Assembly (NCBI GenBank): GCA_903837255.1
Contig: CAILTZ010000460.1
Span: 1-10,478, forward strand
Length of the DNA: 10,478 nt
Source of the DNA: an uncultured Pirellula sp.
GTDB lineage: Bacteria > Planctomycetota > Planctomycetia > Pirellulales > Pirellulaceae
Direction of reading: 5' to 3'
Both the position numbers and the translations under genes were made by a program. The notes below the pieces were generated by a model, which was given only the letters and a program-made list of their open reading frames with translations, was not told the DNA's origin and did no database searches. Shown in pieces: positions 1,690 to 9,974 of the stretch; position 1 is the first letter of the stretch, and every line of letters begins with the position of its first letter.

Positions 1690-3687
1690 ATGACTAAAAA
1701 TTGCTTGGCATGCCTTGCCGTCTTGCTGTGTCTCACGCAAATACTCGCCCAGGAATCGACCCGCCCGCTGGCCATCACCAAAGTCGAACCTCCCTCATGG
1801 TGGACCGGCTCGAGGACCAACCCAATCCGACTGCTCCTGGCCGGACAAGGCTTCAGCGAAGATGTTTTGCTCGCCGCCAATCGCGATGGATTGCAGTTTA
1901 CGAACCTGAGAGCTAGCCAAAACGGACACTACCTGTTTGCCGACCTGCACATCGCTCCGGACTGCCAACCCGGCCCAGTAAAGATCGAAGTAAAGATCGA
2001 TGCCAAAATCGATACGGCGAGCAACGGCCCAAACTCGCCGGGCCAGCTCAAATCAATCGGTCAATTCGATTGGCAAGTCCTCGAGCATCCTACGCATCAG
2101 CCCGCAGGGTTCGGCCCCGAGGACTTTATCTACTTCCTGATGCCCGACCGATTCTGCGATGGAGACCCTGCGAATAATCGCTCAACGAAATCTCCTGATA
2201 TCTACGACCGCACCAAGTCGCGGTTCTACCACGGCGGAGATATCACCGGCTTGGCCAGCAAACTCGATTACATCCAAAGCTTAGGGGCCACAGCGATTTG
2301 GACGACCCCGATCTACGACAACATCGATGCCCCTGACCTGAAAGAAATGCACCCCGAGCCGGGAGGGACCCAGCGAGTCCCAACCACCGGTTACCATGGC
2401 TATGGTGCCATCGATCTATACTCGGTCGATGAGCATTTCGGAACTCTCGACGAACTCAAGTCGTTGATCGACCAAGCCCACCGGCGGGGGATAAAAGTAA
2501 TCCAGGACCAGGTCGCCAACCACACAGGCCCCTACCACGCTTGGGCCCAAGACCCCCCCACGCCAACCTGGTGGAACGGTACGGCCAAATCCCACCTAAA
2601 GAACAATTGGCAAAAATGGACGGCCATGAACCCCAGGGCCGCTTACCAAACCCAACAACTCAATCTCGAAGGTTGGTTTGCCGACGTGCTTCCGGATCTA
2701 AACCAAGACGACCCCGAGGTCGCCAAGTACTTGATCCAACACTCGATCTGGTGGCTAGGCGTTGCAGGCTATGATGCGATCCGAATGGACACGCTTCCGC
2801 ACGTCCCAAGAAAATTCTGGCAGCATTGGGCTAGCTCGGTCAAACGCGAGTTTCCAAACACCAAAGTCCTCGGCGAACTCTACGACCAAGACCCAGTTTT
2901 GGTGGCCTATTACCAAGGTGGTCGCCCAGGCCACGACGGGATCGACACGCAGATCGATACGCTGTTTGACTTTGGACTCTTTACTCCAATTCGAAACGCG
3001 TTTGCAAAAGGCAAAAGCATCCGTGAGGTTCATCAGATGTTTGCAAGGGACTGGCTATATGTCGATCCAAACCGCCTGGCGACCTTCCTAGGAGTTCACG
3101 ACATGCCTCGCTTCATGCACGAAAAAGGTGCCACCATCGAGGGACTCCAATCGGCCATGACCCTGATGATGACCAGCCGTGGTACGCCGATCCTCTACTA
3201 CGGCGACGAACTTGCCATGCTCGGTGGCGAAGACCCTGACAACCGAAGAGACTTTCCCGGAGGCTTCCCCAATGATCCTCGAAACGCCTTCGATGACGCT
3301 GGCCGCGAACCCAAAGAGCGCCAAATCTGGAATCACATCGCAAGGCTCGGTGCGATCCGCAAGGAGTACTCTGCCCTAGCCACCGGTAAGTCGCTCGATC
3401 TGCTCGATGCCGAGCAGCAGTATGTCTATGCCCGAGTCAGCGACAAACATACGTTGGTCATCGCCCTGAACAACGACACCGAAGCCTCGGTCATCGAATT
3501 CGAGGCCGGCCCACTTCAGAGTCAAACATTAGCCAAGGGTTGGTCGTTTCAATGCGATGACCTGCTCGGAGGATCCAACTCTCTGCGCGTTGAGTTCGAT
3601 ACGAGCAACCCCAAGGCTACCATGGTGCCCAAGGCGACGGTCAATCTGCCCGCTCGCTCCAGCGCTGTGTTCTTGTTGCCAGAGTGA
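1690..3687 (+). CDS. Exported GH13 alpha-glucan hydrolase, cyclomaltodextrinase/neopullulanase-like
   Basis: This 665-residue protein should cleave alpha-1,4-glucosidic bonds in starch-type oligosaccharides or cyclodextrins outside the cytoplasm. A signal peptide spans residues 1-20, with cleavage after QILA. Residues ~28-130 match the cyclomaltodextrinase N-terminal domain, starting with VEPPSWWTG. The (beta/alpha)8 catalytic domain begins near 138 (PEDFIYFLMPDRF). All GH13 regions are present: DQVANH (D273, H278), the nucleophile D367 with R365 in IRMD, the acid/base E396 in LGELYD, and H470/D471 in VHDMPRF. A C-terminal beta domain ends at TVNLPARSSAVFLLPE. The frame is open upstream to 1249, but that part is antisense to the propeller gene and the signal peptide begins exactly at the ATG at 1690, so that start was chosen. 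No good ribosome site precedes it. Neopullulanase or maltogenic amylase specificity cannot be separated by eye. Confidence 0.92.
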   Translation: MTKNCLACLAVLLCLTQILAQESTRPLAITKVEPPSWWTGSRTNPIRLLLAGQGFSEDVLLAANRDGLQFTNLRASQNGHYLFADLHIAPDCQPGPVKIEVKIDAKIDTASNGPNSPGQLKSIGQFDWQVLEHPTHQPAGFGPEDFIYFLMPDRFCDGDPANNRSTKSPDIYDRTKSRFYHGGDITGLASKLDYIQSLGATAIWTTPIYDNIDAPDLKEMHPEPGGTQRVPTTGYHGYGAIDLYSVDEHFGTLDELKSLIDQAHRRGIKVIQDQVANHTGPYHAWAQDPPTPTWWNGTAKSHLKNNWQKWTAMNPRAAYQTQQLNLEGWFADVLPDLNQDDPEVAKYLIQHSIWWLGVAGYDAIRMDTLPHVPRKFWQHWASSVKREFPNTKVLGELYDQDPVLVAYYQGGRPGHDGIDTQIDTLFDFGLFTPIRNAFAKGKSIREVHQMFARDWLYVDPNRLATFLGVHDMPRFMHEKGATIEGLQSAMTLMMTSRGTPILYYGDELAMLGGEDPDNRRDFPGGFPNDPRNAFDDAGREPKERQIWNHIARLGAIRKEYSALATGKSLDLLDAEQQYVYARVSDKHTLVIALNNDTEASVIEFEAGPLQSQTLAKGWSFQCDDLLGGSNSLRVEFDTSNPKATMVPKATVNLPARSSAVFLLPE

Positions 3688-3711
3688 ATCGATGGGGCCA
3701 GTCAGTCAGAC

Positions 3712-4002
3712 CTACCAACGTATCTCAACCGGTGCGCCGGCGCGGACCCCGAGCATCATCGCCGCAGAGTCCTCCACCAAGTGGAGTTTCAAAGGGGCAT
3801 CCCCGTCGGCAATCGCTATGAGCGTCATGGCCGGTTGCTGGTGATCGTTGCCAAAGATGCCGATGGTCTCGTGCTCTTCGTCGACCAACACCCGAGTCTC
3901 GGGCGATCGTGGAATGTCCTTCCATGCTGTCGACACAATATCGGTGACCAAATCTCCGTTGGAGGAAACCTCAACCACCGTTCCTTGAATTCGTCTCGAC
4001 AC
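3712..4002 (-). CDS. Small protein resembling the SAM hydroxide adenosyltransferase (DUF62) C-terminal domain
   Basis: This 96-residue protein opens with RIQGTVVEVSSNGDLVTDI, close to the G.V..VD.FGNLVTNI opening of the C-terminal domain of the SAM-dependent halogenase/hydroxide adenosyltransferase family. It ends with LVEDSAAMMLGVRAGAPVEIRW, close to that domain's SA..LG...GD.V.V ending. The catalytic N-terminal domain, which binds S-adenosylmethionine with paired Asp residues, is absent, so enzymatic activity alone is doubtful. The family match is from motif memory and is moderate. The start is GTG at 4002: an in-frame stop lies at 4027-4029, and AGGAG (plus-strand 4011-4015) sits 8 nt upstream, a textbook ribosome site. 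Its stop lies 24 bp from that of the convergent amylase. The upstream same-strand gene, the MCE protein, is 207 bp away, so the gene is probably transcribed on its own. Confidence 0.75.
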   Translation of the reverse strand: MSRRIQGTVVEVSSNGDLVTDIVSTAWKDIPRSPETRVLVDEEHETIGIFGNDHQQPAMTLIAIADGDAPLKLHLVEDSAAMMLGVRAGAPVEIRW

Positions 4003-4010
4003 GTATGCTG

Positions 4011-4015
4011 CTCCT
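4011..4015 (-). promoter_or_regulatory. Ribosome binding site fixing the GTG start at 4002
   Basis: AGGAG on the minus strand lies 8 nt before the GTG at 4002-4000. It is one of the few strong Shine-Dalgarno sites in the window and settles the start of the small DUF62-like gene. Confidence 0.7.
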
Positions 4016-4057
4016 GGGAAGTGGCTCTAGCGGCGAATTCGATCTGTTTAGATGTCG

Positions 4058-4085
4058 CTGTGCAGTTGTTACTGTGCAGTTGTTG
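4058..4085. repeat. Tandem duplication of a 14-bp unit
   Basis: CTGTGCAGTTGTTA at 4058-4071 is followed at once by CTGTGCAGTTGTTG at 4072-4085, so 13 of 14 positions are identical. It lies in the non-coding spacer between the MCE gene and the DUF62-like gene, 56 bp upstream of the latter's start. The second copy shares its last bases with the left arm of the adjacent hairpin. Confidence 0.8.
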
Positions 4086-4104
4086 CGGGGCCAATTGCAA
4101 CAAC
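4079..4104. other. Hairpin with perfect 8-bp stem
   Basis: GTTGTTGC (4079-4086) and GCAACAAC (4097-4104) form a perfect inverted repeat around a 10-base loop. No U-tract follows on either strand, so an intrinsic terminator is not well supported. On the minus strand it would fall in the 5' leader of the DUF62-like gene if transcription starts at the AT-rich box near 4110-4115. Confidence 0.45.
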
Positions 4105-4109
4105 CGCAT

Positions 4110-4115
4110 TTTATA
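4110..4115 (-). promoter_or_regulatory. Weak candidate -10 box for the DUF62-like gene
   Basis: The minus strand reads TATAAA here, in an AT-rich run, about 108 bp upstream of the GTG start. A TTGTCA lies upstream but only 6 bp away, too close to serve as its -35 box. The call rests on one hexamer. Confidence 0.2.
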
Positions 4116-4138
4116 CAAAGCTGACAACCCAGGGGGCT

Positions 4139-4166
4139 AGCACGCAGACCTCGTGCCCAGCGTGCT
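4139..4166. terminator. Stem-loop downstream of the MCE gene
   Basis: AGCACGC (4139-4145) pairs with GCGTGCT (4160-4166) across a 14-base loop, 44 bp past the MCE stop codon. The position suits a 3'-end structure or terminator for that gene. No U-tract follows on the minus strand, so the terminator role is uncertain. Confidence 0.3.
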
Positions 4167-4209: not shown

Positions 4210-5697
4210 TCACCGGATGGCGATCAACCATCCCCGGGGCCCTTTTCGGACCACTCCCAGCCAACGGCCCTGGCCAACGTCCACCACCGGCGCTCCGTCG
4301 AGCTCACCTGCGAGCTGAAACGAGTCGTCGAGTTGAAGGCCTCGATCGGTTTTCGAAAACCGGTTGCTGTCGACAAGAACCGAACCGTCGGTTTCGGATC
4401 CGATAATTAAAATCTCTCCCGGATCGCCATCGATGGGCCGGAGAAACTGACGGGAATCCAGAAGCGGTTCGGCGATGGAGGGTTGGGCAGATAGCTGAAT
4501 TCGCAGGACCTTGCTCCCATCGGAAAGCGCTATGGCCTCAATCGGCTCAAAGGTCGCTTGCGACACCCCGGCAACTTCTAGCTGCCCTGTTTTTTCAATC
4601 GCCGATTTCGACAGCGTGGCAAAGTCCTCCCGACACATGAGGGTCCCATCGTCGAGCAACAACCCCCAACCGAGCTTTTGTTTGGTCACGGCAAAGCCAA
4701 ACGAAGTCTGCTTCCAAACTAGGCTCGTGCGGTAACTGACCGGCGATTGTCGCTGAAGCTTGTCCCAGATCGCACCGTAGGGCAACGAGGGTTTCCAGTC
4801 GCCCCAATCATCATCGGGCTGTTCATGGAGCACAAACCGCGCCCCGGTGCCAACCACCTTGCCTTTGGAATCCGGGGTGGCAAACTCGATCCCGCCATAG
4901 AGAACTTGACTCAACGAATCGGCTTCGAGTTTCAAGCCGGTGATGCCGAGGTTGACGCGCCAACCGCTACGAAGCCAGAACTTGGAGTTCGTGCGCACCA
5001 GTTCATGGTACTCCGGATCGATCGCACAGCGGACCAGGACGCTTCGTGCATCGCTTGCCAAAGTCACCGAGAGAACATCGCCGACGTGGAATCCCCGATG
5101 TAGGATCGGCGTGCCACTGTCCAAACCGTACCGCTTGGGTGAATCAAGGATAAACTCAACGGCCCCTTCTTTGGGGCGGATCGGGGGTGCCGATTCCAGA
5201 CCTTGGAAACGCTTGACGCTGTATTTGTCGGCTGGACCTGGCTCCATCGCGATGTATTTCGGACCGACGATGGTATCGAGTCCGCCAACGGTATCAAAGG
5301 ATACGATCGGTCGAACGATCCAGAAACTCGTTCCATCGGTCACTACGCGGCGAGCGCTGGAATTCAATCGTACCGAGACATGGATTTTGGGCGTGGTATC
5401 CCTTGGCGAAGATTCGCCGCTGGAGGACTCGCCCATGAAAGATGCACCAAGGACAATCTTCTCAACGCGGCCAACATCGATCCCACGGTACCGAAGAGCC
5501 TCTCCGGGTTGCAGGCCATGCCCCTCCTCAAACTCGATGTGGATCAGTTCTCCTTCATTTTGGTAGGACCGAACAAAGAGCACCAGACTCAGCAGTCCGC
5601 ACAATGCAGTCACCGCCCAAAGCCACGAATAGCGTCCCCTTTTCTTTAGGATCGGTACTGCCAGTGGAACGGTTTGGTCAATCGAATTGGATTCCAT
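4210..5697 (-). CDS. PqiB-like MCE-domain membrane protein with a degenerate trypsin-like C-terminal domain
   Basis: This 495-residue protein has one N-terminal membrane anchor (about residues 23-42) and two MCE (MlaD-type) domains. The first spans ~50-154, with GLQPGEALRYRGIDVGRV and, as in PqiB, FWIVRPIVSFDTVGGLDT. The second spans ~178-275, with GLDSGTPILHRGFHVGDV. MCE proteins form rings that carry lipids between membranes of the envelope. A Ser-rich loop (87-103) interrupts MCE 1. PqiB normally continues into further MCE or coiled-coil needle segments. Here residues ~320-495 instead follow the order of a trypsin/HtrA domain: GWGLLLDDGTLMCRED, a middle strand pair, RPIDGDPGEILIIG, then ELDGAPVVDVGQGRWLGVV. 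The His and Ser positions appear to hold Asp358 and Asp467, so it is probably not a protease. That part is inference. The ATG at 5697 lacks a strong ribosome site. No pqiA or permease gene adjoins it. Confidence 0.88.
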   Translation of the reverse strand: MESNSIDQTVPLAVPILKKRGRYSWLWAVTALCGLLSLVLFVRSYQNEGELIHIEFEEGHGLQPGEALRYRGIDVGRVEKIVLGASFMGESSSGESSPRDTTPKIHVSVRLNSSARRVVTDGTSFWIVRPIVSFDTVGGLDTIVGPKYIAMEPGPADKYSVKRFQGLESAPPIRPKEGAVEFILDSPKRYGLDSGTPILHRGFHVGDVLSVTLASDARSVLVRCAIDPEYHELVRTNSKFWLRSGWRVNLGITGLKLEADSLSQVLYGGIEFATPDSKGKVVGTGARFVLHEQPDDDWGDWKPSLPYGAIWDKLQRQSPVSYRTSLVWKQTSFGFAVTKQKLGWGLLLDDGTLMCREDFATLSKSAIEKTGQLEVAGVSQATFEPIEAIALSDGSKVLRIQLSAQPSIAEPLLDSRQFLRPIDGDPGEILIIGSETDGSVLVDSNRFSKTDRGLQLDDSFQLAGELDGAPVVDVGQGRWLGVVRKGPRGWLIAIR

Positions 5698-5811: not shown

Positions 5812-6048
5812 ATGCACCATGCTTTGCAAATTCTCGGTGGCCATCTAGTTAGTGGCCAAACAATTAGTGGCCGCTTGCTCATCGGACCACTGGCCCATGC
5901 CGGGCACGGTCCTGTCGATGCAAACCATCCGGCCCACTACCTGACGGCTCCAGAACACCTCGTTGCGGTCGTTGCAATCGTGGCCTGCGTCGTGATCGCA
6001 GGTTGGTTTGCTGCCCGAACGGCTTATCGGATTTCAAAACCGACTTGA
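5812..6048 (+). CDS. Small His-containing membrane protein of unknown function
   Basis: This 78-residue protein has one clear membrane span at about residues 49-68 (EHLVAVVAIVACVVIAGWFA) followed by a basic end (RTAYRISKPT). The N-terminal half contains histidines at HH, GGH, AHAGHG, NHPAHY and PEHL, which may be coincidental or may bind metal. Its first third carries a five-residue period, GGHLV-SGQTI-SGRLL, matched in the DNA by GTGGCC every 15 bp. I do not recognise a named family. The hydropathy pattern, the frame filling the space between divergent and convergent neighbours, and the lack of a better frame support it as a gene. Its last 25 bp overlap the tail of the convergent SIMPL gene. 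No Shine-Dalgarno site precedes the ATG, and the start is 114 bp from the divergent MCE start. Confidence 0.65.
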   Translation: MHHALQILGGHLVSGQTISGRLLIGPLAHAGHGPVDANHPAHYLTAPEHLVAVVAIVACVVIAGWFAARTAYRISKPT

Positions 6049-7049
6049 ATATTGACCGATAGGACCAAGTCGTTGGGGTTGGCTTGAAGAATCCGACGCT
6101 CGGTCTTCTCTAGCGCATCTTGGACCGCGTACGGTGTGCTGACCAAGACTCCGTTGACATAGGTCGGTCCGCTGTTTGTGTTGCTTGCGGCCATGGGTTG
6201 AATGTTGGAGCTGATCATTCGCACTTCACCGAGCTGCTTGCCGGCCGCGTCTGCCAGACGCTGCGCTTGGCCCTTGGCCTTCTCAAAGCACTTCTTCAAT
6301 GCTGCTGCCTCTTGGCTCTCGCTCAAGATCCCTACATAAACGACCTGAGAGTCGACCGTGGATACAGGGTTTGAAGTGGAAACATACGCGCTTGCTCCCA
6401 TCAAGGGCATGATCTGCTCGAGCTCTTCCTCGGACAACTGGACTCTCAGCTTGGTACCCCTGAAGTCTTTGGATTGGGCGAGCCGTCGAAGCTTGGCACC
6501 AAACTCGATGCTAACGTCTAGATTCTCTTCGGTCATCGGCCATTCGGCGATGAGCCGATTGGTGGCTGCATGGATGGACGGAAGCGGCTCGGAATCCCCA
6601 TCGAGCTCCTCCTCTTCCTGGAGCAGCATCTCGCGCAGTCGACCTCTCATCTGTGGATTGTTCACCTGCATCTGCGCCGCTTGGCGACGCATCCACTGTC
6701 GGGCGGACTCGGGGTTCTCAACAAACGGTACGGTGTTGGTCAGGATCGGCATGGTCCAACGGTAGCTGCCGTCGGTGCGACCGAGCTCGCTTAGGAGTTT
6801 CTCGACCGTCTTGCGATGATCACGCAGAGACGCAATCGCCTCTTCCCCCTCGCGACCCTCGACGCGAAATGGGACACGCAACTGAATGGCCACCGGCTGG
6901 AGCGTGACGGCCTCTTGTGCAGATACCGTCAGAAGGGGCGCAGCTGTAGCCCCGGCGACGGAGCCGCCAGAGGTCTGGGCCAAACTCACTTCAATTACGG
7001 TTGTACCGAAGACCAAAGCTAGAGATGCAAGCAACCAAGGACGTAGCAC
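6024..7049 (-). CDS. Exported SIMPL (DUF541) domain protein
   Basis: This is a 341-residue protein with an N-terminal signal segment (LRPWLLASLALVFGTTVI) and a likely cleavage site near SLAQ. The C-terminal half carries the SIMPL/DUF541 pattern: AALKKCFEKAKGQAQRLADAAGKQLGEV, then a variable stretch, then the closing strand SVNIQVGFEIR. Family members are envelope proteins, some tied to oxidative stress defence; the biochemical role is unknown. A charged insert with an acidic run (EEEELDGDSE) lies in the middle. The start was placed at GTG 7049 because GGAGG (plus-strand 7058-7062) lies 8 nt upstream. An in-frame GTG at 7070 would add seven residues and lacks such a site. The gene follows lpdA on the same strand after a spacer of ~120 bp and ends overlapping the small plus-strand gene. 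Confidence 0.85.
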   Translation of the reverse strand: MLRPWLLASLALVFGTTVIEVSLAQTSGGSVAGATAAPLLTVSAQEAVTLQPVAIQLRVPFRVEGREGEEAIASLRDHRKTVEKLLSELGRTDGSYRWTMPILTNTVPFVENPESARQWMRRQAAQMQVNNPQMRGRLREMLLQEEEELDGDSEPLPSIHAATNRLIAEWPMTEENLDVSIEFGAKLRRLAQSKDFRGTKLRVQLSEEELEQIMPLMGASAYVSTSNPVSTVDSQVVYVGILSESQEAAALKKCFEKAKGQAQRLADAAGKQLGEVRMISSNIQPMAASNTNSGPTYVNGVLVSTPYAVQDALEKTERRILQANPNDLVLSVNIQVGFEIR

Positions 7050-7057
7050 GATCAAGG

Positions 7058-7062
7058 CCTCC
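7058..7062 (-). promoter_or_regulatory. Ribosome binding site deciding the SIMPL gene start
   Basis: The minus strand reads GGAGG, 8 nt upstream of the GTG at 7049-7047. It lies inside the longer frame that begins with GTG at 7070, so it favours the internal start. Confidence 0.65.
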
Positions 7063-7171
7063 AGGACCACAAAAGAGCGCTGAAATACAGTTCTTTTATG
7101 ATACTACGAAGCCGTTGCAAAGGGCCGACAAAGTCTCGAAAACTCTTGCAAAGGCACCCAAGCTCGTCCTG

Positions 7172-8725: not shown

Positions 8726-9337
8726 TTAACGCGACAGGAATTCGACGACGATGTTGGCGTTCACTGGCAACGAGATATCCGTTGGACCCGGAGCGCCTAG
8801 CATGGTCGCTCGGAGACCTTCGGTATCCAGGGACACCCACTCCAGAGGAGCTGGTGGATTGTTGGCAATGATACCTCGGTAGAGGTTTCGGACCGCTTCA
8901 GTGCTGCGGACTTCGATCACATCTCCGGGCCGTAGCGAGAACGAAGGGCTGGTGACCTTCACTCCGTTGACCTTGAAGTGGCCGTGAACGATCCCCTGTC
9001 GAGCTTGCGGGCGAGTCTTGGAAAGCCCGAGCCGTCGAACAACGTTGTCCAGTCGTCGTTCGCAAAGGAGCAAGAGCGTTTCGCCGGTATTGCCCTTTCT
9101 GCGAACCGCATCATCGAAGTATCGGCGGAGCTGCCGCTCGCCGAGTCCATAGTAATACTTGATCTTCTGCTTTTCGGCCAATGCGGTCCCGTAGTTGCCG
9201 GTACGGCGACTGCGGGGGTGCATACCAGGCGGACTATCTTTCCGCTTTTCAAAAGCGCGGACGCATCCTGCGCTTTCGTAGAGCAGTGCGCCAAAGCGAC
9301 GATTCACACGCGCCTTGGGTCCTGTGTATCGCGACAT
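8726..9337 (-). CDS. rpsD: 30S ribosomal protein S4
   Basis: This 203-residue protein is a primary binder of 16S rRNA that nucleates assembly of the 30S body. The N-terminal part (MSRYTGPKARVNRRFG) and the linker GNYGTALAEKQKIKYYYGLGERQLRRYF are typical. The S4 RNA-binding domain spans about 93-150, with ERRLDNVVRRLGLSKTRPQARQGIVHGHFKVNG. The protein ends with the conserved NANIVVEFLSR. Only one Cys (C25) remains in the N-terminal region, so this is a zinc-free form. AGGAG (plus-strand 9344-9348) lies 6 nt before the ATG at 9337. The gene is not beside rpsM, rpsK, rpoA or rplQ, its usual partners; instead it follows rplL after 235 bp. Feedback control by S4 cannot be judged from this sequence. 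Confidence 0.97.
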   Translation of the reverse strand: MSRYTGPKARVNRRFGALLYESAGCVRAFEKRKDSPPGMHPRSRRTGNYGTALAEKQKIKYYYGLGERQLRRYFDDAVRRKGNTGETLLLLCERRLDNVVRRLGLSKTRPQARQGIVHGHFKVNGVKVTSPSFSLRPGDVIEVRSTEAVRNLYRGIIANNPPAPLEWVSLDTEGLRATMLGAPGPTDISLPVNANIVVEFLSR

Positions 9338-9428
9338 GCGATTCTCCTGCTTTTTGAATTCGGCTCAGTCGGCTCTCTTTGCTACACCGCAAAGGTCTGC
9401 TGGCCAGGGGATCTTGGATGGATATTCA

Positions 9429-9444
9429 GAACTTGCGAAAGTTC
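9429..9444. other. Small hairpin upstream of rpsD
   Basis: GAACTT (9429-9434) and AAGTTC (9439-9444) form a perfect 6-bp stem around the tetraloop GCGA (plus strand), 91 bp upstream of the rpsD start. On its own it could be chance. It is listed because it is the third inverted repeat in this spacer. Confidence 0.3.
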
Positions 9445-9457
9445 ATGCATGGCAAAC

Positions 9458-9484
9458 TAGAGCGGTCCATTATGAACCGCTCTA
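9458..9484 (-). terminator. Stem-loop with 9-bp perfect stem in the rplL-rpsD spacer
   Basis: TAGAGCGGT (9458-9466) and ACCGCTCTA (9476-9484) are exact inverted repeats around a 9-base loop. On the minus strand the stem is followed by GTTTGCC, a poor U-tract. It may end rplJL transcription or sit in the rpsD leader. Confidence 0.4.
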
Positions 9485-9526
9485 TTGATGTTTACATGCT
9501 AAGGAATTTCACCGAGTAAGCGTTCC

Positions 9527-9554
9527 TGCGAGGTGTGCTCAAGGCAACCTCGCA
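9527..9554 (-). terminator. Stem-loop 18 bp after the rplL stop
   Basis: TGCGAGGT (9527-9534), a bulged G, and TGC (9536-9538) pair with GCA (9544-9546) and ACCTCGCA (9547-9554) around the loop TCAAG. That gives eleven pairs with one bulge, starting just after the rplL stop codon. No U-run follows on the minus strand, so a factor-independent terminator is possible but not proven. It could instead protect the rplL mRNA end. Confidence 0.45.
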
Positions 9555-9572
9555 AGTGGGCCACAGTGCGAA

Positions 9573-9974
9573 CTACTTGAGTTCGACCGTAGCACCGGCT
9601 TCGGTGAGTTCCTTCTTGATCTTCTCGGCGTCTTCCTTGGAGATTTGTTCCTTGATCTTCGAAGGAACACCTTCGACCAACTTCTTGGAATCGATCAGGG
9701 ACAGACCGGTCAAGTTCTTAACGATCTTGACGATGTCGAGTTTCTTGTCGCCGAAGGCGGTCAAGACAACGTCGAATTCGGTCTTCTCAACCACGGCAGC
9801 GGCAGCACCTTCGGTAGGAGCGGCCATGACCACGGCGCCACCGGCGGCGGCTTCGATGCCATGGACATCCTTAAGGTAATCGCTGAGTTCCTTGGCTTGC
9901 TTGAGCGTCAGGCCGACGATCTTCTCGCCTAAGTTCTGGATATCTTCCGCGTAAGCGGTTGCTGACTCGGACAT
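9573..9974 (-). CDS. rplL: 50S ribosomal protein L7/L12
   Basis: This 133-residue protein is the multi-copy stalk protein that recruits translation GTPases to the 50S subunit. It has the N-terminal dimerisation helices (about 8-39, with the segment IVGLTLKQAKELSDYLK). An Ala/Gly-rich hinge (42-62) follows. The C-terminal globular domain (64-133) runs from EKTEFDVVLTAFGDKK to the typical end KKELTEAGATVELK. The segment that reads GLGLKEAK in most bacteria is GLSLIDSK here (90-97). GAGG (plus-strand 9984-9987) lies 9 nt before the ATG at 9974, and an in-frame stop at 9987-9989 fixes the frame. It follows rplJ, as usual, but is not followed by rpoB. Confidence 0.97.
   Translation of the reverse strand: MSESATAYAEDIQNLGEKIVGLTLKQAKELSDYLKDVHGIEAAAGGAVVMAAPTEGAAAAVVEKTEFDVVLTAFGDKKLDIVKIVKNLTGLSLIDSKKLVEGVPSKIKEQISKEDAEKIKKELTEAGATVELK

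Follow-up and report, generated by a model that had tools for sequence, protein, structure and literature searches.

What does a protease-like domain with an altered active site do at the end of an MCE protein? The question is raised by a gene of an uncultured Pirellula sp., located in a stretch of 10,478 nucleotides (the window) that constitutes contig C460 of a 4.64 Mb genome in 912 contigs, 83% complete. A first-pass annotation, made from the letters of the window, had described the product as an MCE/PqiB-like protein that passes from two MCE domains not into a coiled coil or extra MCE modules but into a dead trypsin/HtrA (S1C) domain at residues 320-495. That region is indeed encoded by positions 4210 to 4740, and the stretches cited for the resemblance, GWGLLLDDGTL, RPIDGDPGEILIIGS and ELDGAPVVDVGQGRWLGVV, are all found in the translation of the reading frame. 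The features are compiled in Table 1.

Table 1. Position of the MCE gene, its predicted domains and the former catalytic slots in the window.
Feature	Position	Strand	Basis
MCE protein gene (PqiB/LetB type) with predicted C-terminal pseudoprotease domain, 495 aa	4210..5697	-	ORF; Pfam MlaD; LetB E 1.9e-85; genus match 26/27
Putative N-terminal transmembrane helix, residues 25-46	5560..5625	-	helix H25-46 in full-length model
MCE domain 1, residues ~51-167	5197..5547	-	Pfam MlaD best stretch 50-154; model strands
MCE domain 2, residues ~180-291	4825..5160	-	second MlaD stretch; LetB/PqiB alignment to ~306
Terminal MCE motif W..W.P.LP.G, residues ~298-308	4774..4806	-	alignment to LetB C-terminus
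Predicted C-terminal PA-clan (HtrA/chymotrypsin-fold) pseudoprotease domain (CTD), residues ~309-495	4213..4773	-	AF2 model; Foldseek, VIA-align; sequence-only profiles
Asp358 codon, slot of catalytic His	4624..4626	-	hhalign register
Lys396 codon, approximate slot of catalytic Asp, least certain of the three	4510..4512	-	hhalign register
Asp467 codon, slot of catalytic Ser	4297..4299	-	hhalign register

The part of this description that concerns the MCE region was borne out. Pfam PF02470 (MlaD/MCE) matches the 495-residue protein in two stretches with 69.3 bits, against a cut-off of 25.1, and the Pfam scan returned nothing besides MlaD. In the PDB, LetB was the best match and PqiB was found with an E value of 4.2e-31; both alignments stop at residue ~306. 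The NCBIfam model PRK10807 (PqiB) covers residues 18-293 at 2.2e-45, under its full-length cut-off. The full-length structure model (pLDDT 83.3, pTM 0.52) shows a helix at residues 25-46, followed by two MCE domains and a region of strands; past the MCE part (after residue 291) it has neither a coiled coil nor a long helix. Judging from its hydrophobic sequence and from LetB and PqiB, the N-terminal helix is probably inserted in the membrane. The MCE part closes with the W..W.P.LP motif, which in a loose form is present in the last 60 residues of 43 of the 46 CTD-less homologs among those listed, and W301, P303 and G308 rank among the most conserved positions of the alignment. The CTD starts directly past this motif, where E. 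coli LetB ends, and hence is expected at the end of the protein opposite its inner-membrane anchor.

In agreement with the proposed protease fold, the AlphaFold2 model of the CTD (pLDDT 91) is a PA-clan double beta-barrel, a prediction that rests on one family member modelled twice, as the CTD and as the full-length protein. All 50 matches listed in a Foldseek comparison with the PDB were HtrA1, HtrA3, DegS or DegP, the superpositions being loose, with TM scores of about 0.42-0.53 and rmsd values >6 Å. Sequence profiles agree weakly with this fold. The CTD profile yielded four PDB matches at E<=10, all of the TEV type, the best at 2.3e-4 and the others at 0.21-0.27. Aligned by hhalign to seven HtrA-like proteins from the window's own genome, a profile of 68 CTD sequences scored 26.2 (E 0.0026); the alignment is collinear, but its hhalign probability is only 11.5. 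For comparison, the highest score among 100 column shuffles was 22.3 and their mean 10.95; the reversed CTD profile scored 12.7 and the MCE region 16.7. With the PDB profile matches and an hhalign score above 100 of 100 shuffles, the PA-clan relationship is detectable without a structure. The trypsin/HtrA assignment is thus supported by the model, the Foldseek matches and a weak profile signal, and the comparison with DegP and DegS suggested at the outset returned both of them as matches to a predicted double barrel. No Pfam family covers the CTD in either the 495-residue protein or the 68 CTDs scanned, which ruled out a known MCE-associated C-terminal domain. Trypsin_2 does not exceed its cut-off in the 495-residue protein, and one of the 68 CTDs reaches an E value of 0.048. 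Sub-threshold Pfam matches (MreC core, Peptidase_C25_C, GAF, T2SSE and others), each in one or two members, were taken as chance.

The first-pass annotation had placed Asp358 in the slot of the catalytic His and Asp467 in that of the Ser; both positions are correct and the hhalign register pairs them in the same way, with Lys396 falling at the catalytic Asp. The slots were then compared in 187 near-complete CTDs, 177 of them unique, taken from the 117 ORFs of the loci and from 74 of 120 listed homologs. At the His slot Asp occurs in 106, Glu in 28, Asn in 13 and Ser in 13 of the 177 sequences, while at the Ser slot His occurs in 93, Asp in 38, Asn in 17 and Cys in one. Neither His at the first nor Ser at the second was found in any of them, the Asp slot is occupied by Asp in five, and an intact triad is present in none. 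Catalysis therefore looks lost throughout the family, as had been claimed for the single protein. As to whether the Asp substitutions are kept in orthologs, the absence of the catalytic His and Ser is general (177/177), and Asp itself varies (106/177 and 38/177). An active protease fused to MCE domains, as an ancestor might look, was sought among the 177 CTDs and not found. The sole Cys at the Ser slot belongs to one relative (L053, CTD near 3550-4122), in which the His slot holds Ser.

The fusion recurs, patchily, across the planctomycetes. Within the genus the 495-residue protein was matched in 26 of 27 genomes, and all 18 genomes that are >=90% complete and <=5% contaminated have a match; one of the 26 matches ends before the CTD (G538) and one is split over two contigs (G545). 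Outside the genus the distribution of the CTD gene is patchy. The CTD was found in at least 11 of 146 genomes of the order sample and in at least 46 of 392 of the phylum sample at E<=0.01, at least 35 of them at E<=1e-10; both tallies include the window's own genome and are lower bounds, as the best 22 (order) or best 8 (phylum) candidates per genome were scored. In the retrieved loci, all 117 CTD ORFs hold MCE domains, 77 having been retrieved by an alignment that includes MCE and 40 by the CTD alone, with weaker CTD matches left out and duplicates between collections retained. Two MCE domains are present in 86 of these ORFs and three in 30, and one ORF is truncated; relatives with two or three MCE domains were found across Planctomycetota. 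One locus titled Alphaproteobacteria (L055) has five neighbour-gene clusters in common with L060, L073 and L080, titled Phycisphaerae or Phycisphaerales, and probably is a mislabelled planctomycete genome.

The CTD is under purifying selection and hence maintained. For 16 pairs, dN/dS (NG86) was 0.02-0.09 in the MCE part and 0.04-0.26 in the CTD, with saturation for the window's own pairs and an undefined value in two pairs; in 13 of the 14 comparable pairs the CTD evolves faster. The distances of the two parts correlate across 74 proteins with r 0.78 (best of 500 permutations 0.09), which fits a single old MCE-CTD fusion whose parts were inherited together. Twelve profile matches had a length suitable for a stand-alone CTD. 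Four were inspected, and since three of them begin in the MCE end (P0123, P0125 and P0128) and P0130 begins inside the CTD, they were read as fragments or mis-called starts; this reading is less secure for P0128, which lies on a long contig.

The gene most often found beside the fusion is pqiA. Neighbours were clustered for 77 of 81 loci; in the other four the MCE ORF had not been picked. Of these 77, 37 have a PqiA-type gene upstream, which in 36 is the immediate neighbour, and Pfam PF04403 was confirmed in all three PqiA-type neighbours scanned. It is the only neighbour that recurs at one position in more than 10 of these loci, most clusters lacking annotation, and a conserved downstream partner did not emerge. 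By profile, the retrieved stretch holds a same-strand PqiA for 92 of the 117 CTD ORFs and none for 25. In three of the 92 (L108, L136 and L140) PqiA, MCE and CTD are joined in a single ORF; such natural fusions support the notion that PqiA and the MCE-CTD protein work together. The association was also followed in 36 of the 44 genomes other than the window's own that carry a CTD at E<1e-10 in the order and phylum samples. All 36 have pqiA; in 33 (not in G248, G133 and G014) it is the immediate upstream neighbour of the CTD gene, as judged by contig and coordinates, so that contig edges may hide a linkage. PqiC (PF03886) is present in 13 of the 36 and adjoins the CTD gene in none.

Within the genus, PqiA was found in 24 of 27 genomes. 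In 14 of these its gene is the immediate upstream neighbour of the MCE gene, and the MCE protein shares 39-49% identity with that of the window; in 10 the two genes lie on different contigs and this identity is >=50%. All of the latter ten belong to the window's half of the genus. Two genomes have the MCE gene and no PqiA was found in them (G000 and G542), and in G527 neither was found. PqiC was detected in none of the 27 genomes, the window's own included. The latter, at 83% completeness, has no match to PF04403 or PF03886 anywhere, and the linked pqiA and pqiC of a PqiABC operon were accordingly not found there.

Other genes in the window were recorded as well. A SIMPL (DUF541) gene (6024-7070, minus strand) lies directly upstream of the MCE gene and is also found in six relatives. 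Positions 3712-4140 hold overlapping antisense ORFs of 96 residues (minus) and 119 residues (plus), neither with a Pfam match, and the longer one clusters with ORFs in three relatives. At 8726-9974 (minus), what comes after the L7/L12 ribosomal protein gene is the gene for ribosomal protein S4 and not rpoB, its usual neighbour.

Taken together, the computation supports a CTD of the predicted fold that has lost its triad, is joined to MCE domains and evolves under purifying selection, in a gene associated with pqiA and without a linked pqiC. The explanation we favour, and to which we give about even chances, is a variant of the PqiB/LetB-type lipid transporter in which the dead protease barrel replaces needle and PqiC as the distal docking or capping module. 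The 495-residue protein would be the MCE subunit of a PqiA/LetA-type transporter, with residues 25-46 as its inner-membrane anchor, and would continue through two MCE domains into the dead trypsin/HtrA-fold CTD. If it assembles as a hexamer, by analogy with characterised MCE proteins, six dead barrels would come to lie at the distal end and may stand in for the coiled-coil needle of PqiB and the PqiC collar. They might bind an outer-membrane partner or a periplasmic lipid carrier, perhaps via the old peptide groove, and a lipid route could thereby link the short ring stack with the outer membrane. Docking or capping against such a partner appears the likeliest role, at roughly one half, because the coiled coil is absent, PqiC is unlinked and turned up in none of the genus genomes, and the fold is that of a dead peptide-binding domain. 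Other dead or borrowed protease folds are described as used for binding, namely the HtrA-fold domain of MamO and the S1C domain of RsgI9 (7sjy), in the accessible sections of PMC4794232 and PMC12203970, respectively. Against docking speak the lack of a pqiA match in the window's own genome, the 25 of 117 CTD ORFs without a same-strand pqiA in the retrieved stretch, the patchy distribution outside the genus, the loose superpositions and the low hhalign probability. The occurrence of pqiC elsewhere in 13 of the 36 CTD genomes indicates that a replacement of PqiC is not general at the genome level. It is rather doubtful that the arrangement goes further, with six dead proteases ringing the distal end and an acid plus His/Asp site gripping an outer-membrane partner or gating lipid exit, so that PqiC and needle are unnecessary.

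The reading next in line, tentative as it is, takes the CTD as a ligand-less structural collar, its sole task being to stabilise the distal end of the MCE hexamer or to act there as a spacer. The linker residues W301, P303 and G308 belong to the most conserved positions and those of the groove do not, and the faster evolution of the CTD also fits a loosely constrained spacer. The former active-site pair stays polar, however, with Asp/Glu in 134 of 177 and His/Asp/Asn in 148 of 177, a degree of constancy that a pure spacer does not seem to require. In a further reading, Asp/Glu at the His slot and His/Asp/Asn at the Ser slot would form a repurposed site that binds a metal or a small ligand for gating or sensing. 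The commonest pairs at the His and Ser slots, Asp-His (58/177) and Asp-Asp (35), would suit such a site, and MamO is described as binding metal, though at other positions (PMC4794232, accessible sections). Both columns are only moderately conserved, with ranks 32 and 48 of 176, and we consider this use unlikely; for the same reason any binding surface, also under the docking reading, may lie elsewhere.

Somewhat less likely still is a role in proteolysis, in which the dead CTD would bind an active periplasmic HtrA and activate or recruit it. It has a precedent in MamO, which promotes MamE-dependent proteolysis, but there, according to the accessible sections of PMC4794232, activation used the transporter domain and not the protease domain. 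Potential targets exist, with 13 PF13365 places above cut-off in the same genome, yet no HtrA gene is among the few neighbour clusters identified, most clusters lacking annotation. That the CTD is still an enzyme with a non-canonical nucleophile is very improbable. The Cys of L053 is one in 177, and although the best PDB profile match of the CTD is a TEV-type cysteine protease, the His slot is without His in every sequence, the Asp slot is not conserved, and two residues ahead of the Ser slot 96 of the 177 CTDs carry an acidic residue and six a Gly.

The docking or capping reading, if true, would mean that a lipid conduit may do without the partner protein used by E. coli. An account of how lipids cross the planctomycete envelope is absent from the accessible parts of the literature examined, and the MCE-CTD protein is a concrete, conserved candidate; what caps a short MCE tube becomes a testable question in cultured planctomycetes, of which Bythopirellula polymerisocia has a homolog (locus L031). 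The CTD also represents a domain family absent from Pfam. According to the accessible sections of PMC5561183, more than 97% of MCE proteins fall into four architectures, all four of them lacking a protease domain; the types with three and seven MCE domains are called specific to Proteobacteria there, whereas tandem-MCE proteins occur across Planctomycetota. In the literature on MCE proteins and HtrA pseudoproteases, no MCE-protease fusion appears in the titles and abstract openings among the matches listed, a scope outside which most subscription papers and preprints lie. The combination of MCE with a dead protease apparently is a design not described before and a new use of this fold.

Of the known systems, MamO shares with the CTD an HtrA-fold domain in which catalysis is lost. 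As described in the accessible sections (PMC4794232), which mention no MCE domain, MamO keeps His and Asp but has Thr for Ser; two His residues on its surface bind metal, and its C-terminal part is a transporter domain. The S1C domain of RsgI9 belongs to an anti-sigma factor, without a link to lipid transport in the accessible text (PMC12203970). The elongated MlaD of Veillonella likewise adds a C-terminal beta domain to an MCE protein, an outer-membrane beta-barrel proposed to replace carrier and lipoprotein and reported absent from MlaD of the PVC group (PMC10665443, accessible sections). That domain is a predicted membrane barrel, whereas the window protein has a protease fold on a multi-MCE protein. 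With E. coli PqiB, which acts with PqiA and PqiC, the protein has in common the N-terminal membrane anchor, the tandem MCE domains and, in most relatives, pqiA beside the gene. PqiB (type III) has three MCE domains, a number found in 30 of the 117 relatives, and its coiled coil contacts PqiC, which holds it at the outer membrane (PMC10897342, accessible sections); the window protein has two, a PA-clan domain in place of the C-terminal coiled-coil needle, and pqiC is unlinked. LetB (YebT) of E. coli shares the terminal W..W..LP motif, but ends there; it has seven MCE domains (PMC5561183, accessible sections), whereas the window protein has two and continues into the CTD.
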